Positions 9,494-16,482 of a stretch of 32,430 bases of DNA are shown piece after piece. Source of the stretch: Hellea sp. (lineage in GTDB: Bacteria > Pseudomonadota > Alphaproteobacteria > Caulobacterales > Maricaulaceae); contig JALZWM010000155.1 in NCBI GenBank assembly GCA_023300105.1, forward strand, positions 1 to 32,430, in the 5' to 3' direction. The notes beneath the pieces were generated by a model. That model did not search any database. It was not told the origin of the DNA and saw only the letters and a program-made list of their open reading frames with translations. Positions within the stretch are counted from its first letter, which is position 1. Each line of letters starts with the position of its first letter. The position numbers were made by a program, and so were the translations under genes.

Positions 9494-9715
9494 CTACCCT
9501 GCCAAAGGCAATTCAAAATTCTCATTTTGAGCGGGTTGTTGCTTGGGTGTTTTTGCATCAAATTCGCCGCGCCATTTAAAGATAACTGCGAGAGGCGAAC
9601 CTACAGGACAATACCAACGCTGAACTGAAGGGTCCCAACGCGCGCCAAGGCGTTTCGCAAGTTCGCGGTCCGCATATTTAACGTTTAAAAATTTCTTTGC
9701 AGATGTTTTGGCCAT
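9494..9715 (-). CDS. DUF5710 domain protein, probably LexA-controlled
   Basis: This 73-residue protein has the DUF5710 pattern at about residues 7-37: KKFLNVKYADRELAKRLGARWDP followed by RWYCP. The domain is often fused to DNA-processing enzymes such as primases and topoisomerases of plasmids; here it is nearly the whole protein, with a short polar tail. Its molecular function is not established. AGGA six bases upstream fixes the ATG at 9715. A perfect GAAC-N7-GAAC repeat lies 35 bases upstream of the start, so it is probably repressed by LexA and induced by DNA damage. It follows the desaturase gene on the same strand after 112 bases but is likely transcribed separately. Confidence 0.82.
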   Translation of the reverse strand: MAKTSAKKFLNVKYADRELAKRLGARWDPSVQRWYCPVGSPLAVIFKWRGEFDAKTPKQQPAQNENFELPLAG

Positions 9716-9749
9716 GGGAATTTCCTATTTAATCCTTGTTCTGAAATGA

Positions 9750-9764
9750 GAACATAACAAGAAC
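9750..9764 (-). promoter_or_regulatory. SOS box upstream of the DUF5710 gene
   Basis: GAAC at 9750-9753 and GAAC at 9761-9764 are separated by exactly seven bases (GTTC-N7-GTTC on the minus strand), the direct-repeat LexA site known from alphaproteobacteria. It ends 35 bases before the DUF5710 start codon. The same spacing occurs in front of lexA in this window. A further inverted half-site, GTTC at 9738-9741, lies next to it. Confidence 0.75.
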
Positions 9765-9827
9765 AAAATAGGAAATCAATCCTAATTATGCATTTTTATT
9801 TCATTTGCATAATTCAATCAAAATTTA

Positions 9828-10844
9828 CTAAGCACAAGCTGTCTTACGCTTAGAGAATGAAACCATTTTCTCGCGGGTTTCACACCACAGGGCCAAGCGT
9901 ACAGTCTTAAAGCTATTCCAGATTGTTAAACGGCCGACCGTTTTAAGCTCAGGATGCGCCTTTAAAACACGTGGCAATTGATAGAACGGAATACGGCTAG
10001 ACAGGTGATGCACATGATGGACGCCAATATTACCCGTCACCCACATAAGCGGCGCAGGTAAATCGTAATAAGAACTCCCATGCAAGGCTGCATCTTCGCG
10101 CGTCCATTCTTTGGTGCGCGACCAATGTGTTTCATCAAATTGATGCTGAACGTAAAACATCCATACGCCAATAGACGCGCCAATAATAATGATAGGCGTT
10201 TGAATTAAAAGGAAAGCTTTGAGGCCAACGCCCCAAATCAACAAACCATAAAGAATAGCCACCCCTGCATTTGTTGTCAGCGTGCTAATCCACGGCATTT
10301 TACGTTTCATTGACCCCAAAGGGATGCGGTTCGCAATAATAAAGACATAAGCCGGGCCCACACCAAACATCACCACAGGATGACGGTACAGGCGGTATTT
10401 CAGTTTTTCAAATTTTGGTAGCGCATCATATTCTTCAACCGTAAGCGTGTGAACATCTCCCCCAATACCGCGGCGATCCAAATTACCAGATCCCGCGTGA
10501 TGAAGTGCATGATCACGGCGCCAGTGATCATAAGGCGTAAGCGTCAAGATACCGATAAAACGTCCGACCCATGTATTTGCAGTCTTATGAGAAAACATAG
10601 ACCCATGGCCACAATCATGCTGGATGATAAACAGTCTAACAATCAATCCGCCCCCCGGGATAACGCCGAGCAATGCCCAATACTGGCCCATGCCTAAAAG
10701 CAGCCACATAGCCGCCCAAAGCGCAAGGAATGGAATAAGCGTTATAAGCAATTCAAAAATAGCGCGCCCATTTTCGGCGGTACGGTAGGGCGCCAAGCGG
10801 TTAAACCAAAGCTTTGCACTTGCCGCAGGATTAGAAATTGTCAT
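9828..10844 (-). CDS. Membrane fatty acid desaturase (omega-6/DesA type)
   Basis: This 338-residue integral membrane di-iron desaturase carries the three histidine boxes: HDCGH at residues 76-80, HALHH at 112-116 and HHVHH at 276-280, with an extra HQFDETHW at 234-241. Hydrophobic segments at about 31-73, 157-172 and 192-232 supply the membrane helices. The HDCGH first box and HxxHH second box are typical of acyl-lipid desaturases that introduce double bases' worth of unsaturation in fatty acyl chains, i.e. double bonds in membrane lipids; the exact position of the bond cannot be read from sequence. AAGG seven bases upstream supports the ATG at 10844. It is monocistronic and preceded on its strand by a 373-base gap with a structured element that could be its leader. 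Confidence 0.92.
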   Translation of the reverse strand: MTISNPAASAKLWFNRLAPYRTAENGRAIFELLITLIPFLALWAAMWLLLGMGQYWALLGVIPGGGLIVRLFIIQHDCGHGSMFSHKTANTWVGRFIGILTLTPYDHWRRDHALHHAGSGNLDRRGIGGDVHTLTVEEYDALPKFEKLKYRLYRHPVVMFGVGPAYVFIIANRIPLGSMKRKMPWISTLTTNAGVAILYGLLIWGVGLKAFLLIQTPIIIIGASIGVWMFYVQHQFDETHWSRTKEWTREDAALHGSSYYDLPAPLMWVTGNIGVHHVHHLSSRIPFYQLPRVLKAHPELKTVGRLTIWNSFKTVRLALWCETREKMVSFSKRKTACA

Positions 10845-15759: not shown

Positions 15760-15787
15760 TTGACAACAAAAAGAACATCTGTAGAAC
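15760..15787 (+). promoter_or_regulatory. lexA promoter
   Basis: TTGACA at 15760-15765 is a perfect -35 box. TAGAAC at 15782-15787 follows after 16 bases and matches four of six bases of the -10 consensus. The -10 element overlaps the right half of the SOS box, so bound LexA would block polymerase. A transcript from here would start about 55 bases before the lexA start codon. Confidence 0.6.
15773..15787 (+). promoter_or_regulatory. SOS box of lexA
   Basis: GAAC at 15773-15776 and GAAC at 15784-15787 are exactly seven bases apart, the alphaproteobacterial LexA operator. It lies inside the lexA promoter, 59 bases before the start codon, which indicates self-repression. Confidence 0.9.
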
Positions 15788-15846: not shown

Positions 15847-16482
15847 ATGCTGACTCAGAAACAAAAAGATTTACTTTTACTAATCGATCGCAAAATTAAA
15901 GCGGTTGGTGTCCCGCCTTCTTATGACGAGATGAAAGATTCGCTCGGCCTTGCTAGTAAGTCTGGCATTCACCGCCTGATTACAGCACTTGAAGAACGCG
16001 GTTTTATCCGCCGCCTCCCCAATAAAGCCCGCGCGCTCGAAGTTCTCAAACTTCCTGAAGACTTTCAATCCGAAATGGCTAAGCCTGAACCCGCCAATGA
16101 TGTCTATGAAGTTCCCTTTGTTGGTAAAATTGCGGCGGGTAATCCCATTGCCGCGATTGAAGATAGTTACAATATGATATCTGTCCCGCCGAGTATGATG
16201 GGGCCAGGTCACTTTGCCCTCGAAATCGAAGGCGAGTCCATGATTGAGGCTGGTATTTTGGATGGCGATATTGTCATCATCAAAAAAGCCAATACGGCGC
16301 GTAACAATCAAATTGTCGTCGCCCTCGTCGATCAAGAAGAAGCGACGCTTAAGCGCATTTACAAAACAGGCCAAACCATTGAATTAATTCCTGAAAATAA
16401 AGATTTCGAAACAAAAACATTCGGCCCTGACCGTGTTGAAGTTCAAGGCATATTAGTTGGCCTCGTTCGTAGCTATCACTAG
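15847..16482 (+). CDS. lexA: LexA repressor
   Basis: This 211-residue SOS master repressor has an N-terminal winged helix (residues 1-65, [31 protein letters not shown]) and a C-terminal S24 self-cleavage domain. The cleavage site is Ala97-Gly98 in IAAGNP, the nucleophile is Ser131 in EGESMIEAG and the general base is Lys169 in ATLKR. All catalytic parts are intact, unlike the XRE protein at the left of the window. AGGAGAG seven bases upstream marks the ATG. A self-directed SOS box sits in its promoter and a strong terminator follows 28 bases after the stop. RecA-triggered cleavage would release both this gene and the DUF5710 gene. Confidence 0.98.

Follow-up and report, generated by a model that had tools for sequence, protein, structure and literature searches.

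The LexA regulon of Alphaproteobacteria has been described for Caulobacter crescentus, where the operator is a GTTC-N7-GTTC box. Two early induced SOS genes of this organism, ccna_01391 and ccna_02355, have been tracked by RNA-seq and with reporters, and the LexA box reported for both is, letter for letter, the 15-mer that stands in front of the gene discussed here (PMC12700426). A second group of comparators comprises the accessory proteins of the DnaN sliding clamp (Hda/HdaA, MutS and the translesion polymerases), which carry a short QLxL(x)L/F-type motif near a terminus. The consensus of this beta-clamp-binding motif is given as QL[S/D]LF, usually C-terminal (PMC3716654, PMC9690074); Caulobacter HdaA has QFKLPL, which is reported as needed for DnaN binding in live cells, and E. 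coli Hda has QLSLPL (PMC3836487), while Caulobacter MutS is described as recruited through DLPLF, a motif without the Q (PMC8034640). The Caulobacter toxin SocB is likewise reported to act via the DnaN cleft (PMC9690074). As for DUF5710 itself, the literature searched places it in plasmid Rep proteins only, namely in Rep_3 replication proteins (PMC11233732).

The locus described here lies in the window, that is, the whole stretch of 32,430 nucleotides of Hellea sp. DNA that was analysed (assembly GCA_023300105.1, contig JALZWM010000155.1), and encodes a DUF5710 mini-protein (Table 1). With the Caulobacter LexA regulon it shares both the GTTC-N7-GTTC box and its spacing, and it differs in the regulon member itself, the DUF5710 profile matching none of 14 control genomes, Caulobacter vibrioides among them. 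As in the clamp accessory proteins, there is a short stretch near its terminus, the putative clamp-binding motif NFELPL, which resembles the QFKLPL of HdaA and for which the DLPLF of MutS is a Q-less precedent. In contrast to them, the body of the protein is a DUF5710 domain of ~45 residues rather than an ATPase, nuclease or polymerase, and 21 of 35 DUF5710 tails, the window's own included, have N at the usually conserved Q position. The mini-protein would, as SocB does, act through the DnaN cleft, but it has no kept neighbour, is predicted to be under LexA-type control and need not be toxic in its role. Finally, it belongs to the same family (PF18974) as the plasmid zincin/TraC-type and Rep_3 proteins, in which DUF5710 is a module of a larger protein, whereas here it stands alone with a tail and a box.

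An initial annotation of this DNA had recognised a stand-alone DUF5710 gene of 73 residues, and this identification stands: the translated ORF matches Pfam DUF5710 with E 2.6e-11 and 43.5 bits, above the curated cut-off of 26.5, and DUF5710 is its single Pfam domain. A profile search of the source genome, a draft of 2.43 Mb in 167 contigs, returned this ORF as its only match. The same annotation had spoken of the Hyphomonadaceae; NCBI taxonomy, in this regard, puts Hellea in the Robiginitomaculaceae, Maricaulales. Named records with relatives of the mini-protein are from Hellea at all five loci, and Hellea balneolensis DSM 19091 is a named, cultured relative with the gene. The literature searched on clamp-binding small SOS proteins and on LexA in Hyphomonas/Hyphomonadaceae contains, in the parts covered, no description of the DUF5710 gene, which is no proof of absence. 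Between the promoter of the gene and the upstream gene there is one terminator-like hairpin, against 0.4 expected in shuffles.

Table 1. Features at the DUF5710 locus and at lexA in the window.
Feature	Positions	Strand	Remarks
DUF5710 mini-protein gene	9494..9715	-	ATG start, 73 aa; ORF, translation, Pfam
Putative beta-clamp-binding motif NFELPL	9503..9520	-	residues 66-71, two residues before C-terminus
DUF5710 domain	9572..9697	-	residues 7-48; basic, predicted beta-alpha-beta-beta-alpha
Likely ribosome-binding site AGGA	9723..9726	-	by eye in sequence
Third half-site GAAC, inverted	9738..9741	-	8 nt downstream of box
Putative LexA box GTTCTTGTTATGTTC (along gene)	9750..9764	-	perfect GTTC-N7-GTTC
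-10 hexamer TATGTT, within LexA box	9751..9756	-	upstream comparison
-35 hexamer TTGATT	9774..9779	-	17 bp spacer
Inverted repeat TAGGAnnnnnnTCCTA (TAGGATTGATTTCCTA)	9769..9784	.	over -35; by eye, several Hellea upstreams
Terminator-like hairpin	9828..9853	-	between DUF5710 promoter and upstream gene; weak evidence
LexA box of lexA, GAACATCTGTAGAAC along gene	15773..15787	.	repeat scan
lexA	15847..16482	+	Pfam LexA_DNA_bind + Peptidase_S24

The box had originally been described as a GAAC-N7-GAAC repeat 35 bases upstream of the gene and likened to that of lexA in the same window. The repeat is present, with a gap of 34 bp rather than 35 between it and the ATG, and the likeness to the lexA box holds for the spacing and for the reading on the plus strand, but not for the orientation along the gene, the DUF5710 box reading GTTC..GTTC and the lexA box GAAC..GAAC. 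The window contains three perfect repeats against 0.75 expected, a number matched in 5 of 100 shuffles. Across the genome there are 54, with 33 falling within ORFs that are 150 codons or longer and the other 21 outside such ORFs; since a reversed control pattern occurs 91 times, the repeat count was dropped as evidence in its own right. A single repeat of this type proves little, and it is conservation that lifts the DUF5710 box beyond chance.

That conservation is complete among the relatives that carry the gene. When 61 genomes, that of the source included, were searched with the protein, 14 gave a match to the DUF5710 gene; a profile search over 137 family genomes gave 36, spread across 6 of 19 genera. 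It was not found in the other 101, among them 74 of the 95 near-complete genomes; its function is therefore accessory, not core. Conservation of both half-sites in front of orthologues had been put forward at the outset as a check, and on running it a perfect GTTC-N7-GTTC was found upstream in all 36 genomes, with two boxes in one of them. These 36 comprise 35 distinct proteins with their promoters (44 family loci were read, nine of them repeats of the same protein) and one copy truncated where its contig ends (G076), which was taken in for the box count and left out of the tail count. Shuffled upstream regions contain a perfect repeat in 37 of 10,500 cases (0.35%), against 35 of 35 real ones, and each half-site spacing from 3 to 12 other than 7 occurs in at most 2 of the 35 upstreams. 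The orthologues are related, so the 36 genomes are not 36 independent trials. Conserved synteny as the source of the conserved repeat is ruled out because the flanking genes differ: in nine contexts, where the two closest large ORFs to either side were compared by eye, different genera have no flanking gene in common, and one neighbour is common to two genomes of genus g9.

A second copy in genome G137 (locus L109) is a decayed DUF5710 with an in-frame TAA; it falls below the cut-off and was left out of the counts. Upstream of it stands GTTC-N7-GCTC, with one half-site altered.

The same perfect repeat occurs in the source genome before lexA, recA (twice), ruvC, comM and two Y-family polymerases, as well as in the gap between uvrA and ssb; at rmuC and at a GIY-YIG protein gene it overlaps the assigned start. 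The sites at these genes and at the DUF5710 gene belong to the 21 repeats outside large ORFs, others of which stand beside genes without a known repair link or with no gene near. Domain names are those of Pfam; the names of genes (comM, for instance), and the uvrA assignment as a whole, are our own reading. Moreover, lexA has the repeat upstream in all 14 DUF5710-bearing relatives chosen for this check (12 located by script, two read separately), in addition to the window's own lexA. Co-occurrence with Y-family polymerases was also considered and is uninformative, as 130 of 137 genomes match. Together with the conservation in all 36 genomes and the identity to the reported Caulobacter 15-mer, the lexA boxes support the original proposal that the gene belongs to the SOS regulon, and the DUF5710 gene is thus very probably under LexA control.

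The anatomy of the predicted promoter is in keeping with such control. In 35 of 36 boxes (from 35 upstream regions), the end of the spacer together with the second half-site yields the -10 hexamer TATGTT, and a TTG stands 17 bp upstream of the -10 in 33 of 35 upstream regions. A consensus promoter scanner with a limit of 9 did not call the DUF5710 promoter, which agrees with the consensus at 8 of 12 positions by hand count. The box covers the -10, so that the geometry is as expected for repression; in other words, the predicted operator overlaps the core promoter in a position that would allow it. In a column-by-column tally, for which 33 of the 35 upstreams were used, the best-kept columns beside the box are the T directly before it (100%), the T directly after it (85%) and the TTG (91-97%), as well as a stretch rich in A and T ahead of the -35 (mostly 61-82%) and, ~4 bases past the box, two T (79-82%). 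The third, inverted GAAC is found 7-9 nt past the box in 19 of 35 orthologue promoters, against 1.4% of shuffles.

That the second half-site overlaps the -10, and that a conserved AT-rich stretch, the inverted repeat at the -35 and the third GAAC all lie nearby, could be taken to mean that the repeat belongs to the promoter itself or serves some other regulator, with the gene outside the SOS regulon. Against this, the promoter spacer holds the first GTTC, which is invariant although no promoter element needs it there, and only a repressor site explains this; the spacing is exactly 7; and recA, lexA and further SOS genes have the repeat too, the 15-mer being that of the reported Caulobacter LexA box. 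Placement of the gene outside the regulon is, therefore, very improbable indeed. The inverted repeat over the -35 is possibly an upstream promoter element, or else a second regulator may bind there. In many promoters of genus g9, a GAATAnATTCCTTG-like element related to it can be seen by eye before the -35.

Turning from the promoter to the product, the domain is basic: the window protein has a net charge of +8 before the linker, and the mean domain charge of the orthologues is +7.1. The initial annotation had held that DUF5710 is otherwise found fused to DNA-processing enzymes, which is largely so: 1138 plasmid records match DUF5710, the 40 listed of these being mostly annotated as zincin-like metallopeptidase or DNA primase TraC, and the reported Rep_3 proteins agree. 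Exceptions are the stand-alone copies in viral contigs and in another alphaproteobacterial family, where the 73-codon frame of locus L111 lacks both the box and the tail motif. From the basic charge and the fusion partners, DUF5710 probably contacts DNA. Folding did not supply a precedent. A first AF2 model has a mean pLDDT of 60, and a domain-only model reaches 71, with residues 11-30 at ~81-82. Foldseek searches with these models, which are of middling confidence, gave nothing at E 0.001 or better, and VIA-align gave best Z values of 2.0 and 2.5 and no known fold; a PDB sequence search returned just short, repeat-like or chance matches. With no known fold to draw on, we infer DNA binding rather than read it from structure. 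A further lead is a possible likeness between DUF5710 and HARP, the fork-binding domain of SMARCAL1. HARP is absent from the Pfam matches of 35 DUF5710 members (to E 10) and from the listed fold-search matches of the same middling-confidence models.

Behind the domain, a linker that varies both in length and in sequence leads to a conserved end. In the window's genus (g1) this end is NFELPL, NFEFDL or NFELDL in 7 of 7 tails; in genus g19 it is QLSLLG in all six whole proteins; and in genus g9 the 17 tails divide into NFDMF (8), NFELPL (3), NFELFM (1), QLSFL (2) and QLSLL (3). QLSMF also occurs among the relatives. Beta-clamp-binding motifs take the form of the pentapeptide consensus or of a hexapeptide, QL[SP]LPL. 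A literature-type pentapeptide pattern fits 12 of 35 tails, compared with 0.07% when the tails are shuffled. If N or D may stand in for Q, a relaxation composed after the tails had been seen and uncorrected for their kinship, the figures are 33 of 35 and 0.28%. The two tails outside the relaxed pattern are VQLQLAC (L041) and LFDQPAARYG (L045). QLSLL, NFDMF and NFELPL thus swap within one slot, which is the pattern that selection for clamp binding would leave, and the tail probably binds the beta-clamp, DnaN. This putative motif is a new observation and suggests a more specific role for the mini-protein than SOS membership by itself. A search of the source genome for HdaA gave one match to PF00308 and none to PF22688.

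The conserved C-terminus could alternatively be a ClpXP-type protease tag which clears an SOS-controlled protein after damage, with no clamp hook at all. The last residues are indeed small or hydrophobic in nearly all tails (for example LAG, LAS, LLG, IAG, AAG, FLA), whatever their distance from the QL/NF motif, and ClpXP is reported to turn over SocB in Caulobacter (PMC5422525). A protease tag would not, however, need the upstream Q/N-L/F-x-L/M pattern. ClpXP-type tags typically end in LAA or VAA, whereas most of the tails end in G or S. As a replacement for clamp binding, a protease tag is unlikely; the two functions can, on the other hand, coexist in one tail.

In the loci read, the box goes with the family's copies of the gene and not with DUF5710 copies elsewhere. 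Samples across the order (398 genomes) and the class (385 genomes) supplied 35 outside-family loci; 13 of these were unlocated by the search pattern, and the remaining 22 represent 17 genes, 13 with their start in view. No box was found at any of the 22 located loci, nor at the 13 genes with start in view. Viral loci gave the same result, with no box upstream in 12 (8 distinct) and none in a second set of 33 loci, read out of 45 fetched and scanned within 400 bp before the domain, a distance that misses the gene start in long frames. In viral contigs L162, L163, L166, L168, L178, L184 and others, DUF5710 lies in short frames of 66-122 codons from stop to stop. Such short viral frames, and the abundance of DUF5710 on plasmids (the 1138 records), would suit a domesticated plasmid or phage gene kept for defence or anti-restriction and merely put under LexA. 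Neither viral set has the box, within the reach given for each, and the clamp-like tail indicates replication or repair instead, so that this origin and purpose appear quite improbable.

From the box, the promoter geometry, their conservation and the tail motif, all of which are there in the DNA to be read, we infer binding by LexA, induction by damage, contact of the protein with the clamp and with DNA, and the direction in which it acts. LexA on the box over the -10 would shut the DUF5710 promoter. Upon DNA damage LexA would be cleaved and the mini-protein made alone from its own promoter; its C-terminal peptide would then dock in the hydrophobic cleft of DnaN, the sliding clamp, and the DUF5710 domain would touch DNA at or behind stalled forks. 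The effect might be to guard the fork, to hold DNA or recruit partners there, or to displace other clamp clients such as polymerases. A basic mini-protein, repressed by LexA, induced by damage and held on DnaN at damaged forks, is, on balance, the likely reading.

The small size of the protein, which has a single clamp-like motif and no other Pfam domain, also invites the idea of a brake that competes for DnaN and slows replication after damage. Inhibition by way of the clamp cleft has a reported precedent in SocB (PMC9690074), and LexA repression would fit a harmful protein. In an alignment of 12 sequences, however, every invariant column falls within the DUF5710 part, so that the mini-protein should do more than fill a cleft; moreover, no partner gene travels with it, its neighbours varying between genera. 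A SocB-like brake is accordingly rather unlikely. The tethered mini-protein could further be held to represent a new class of damage-induced factors which remodel or guard forks on DnaN, with DUF5710 as a general module for contact with forks or single-stranded DNA; this we offer tentatively, the balance being somewhat against it. The mini-protein is nevertheless now testable, since it has a predicted switch in LexA, a predicted address at the sliding clamp and a cultured relative. If the proposal is true, the SOS response gains a small accessory factor that probably acts at the replisome, and there would be a hint as to the role of DUF5710 in TraC-type primases and Rep proteins.

Several other boxes were seen in passing. 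The two at recA (locus L058, 1501-1548) are both perfect and end 116 and 83 bp before the ATG. Perfect boxes also lie at the assigned starts of two genes (L002, 1157-1171, and L013, 1501-1515), one with a GIY-YIG domain and the other, a second small gene, GIY-YIG-like by eye and without a Pfam match. A perfect LexA-type box stands 7 bp before the ATG of a gene for a FAN1-HTH protein (L020, 1501-1515), a site which had been tallied inside an ORF because the frame runs on upstream; this gene is a possible SOS-controlled FAN1 nuclease.
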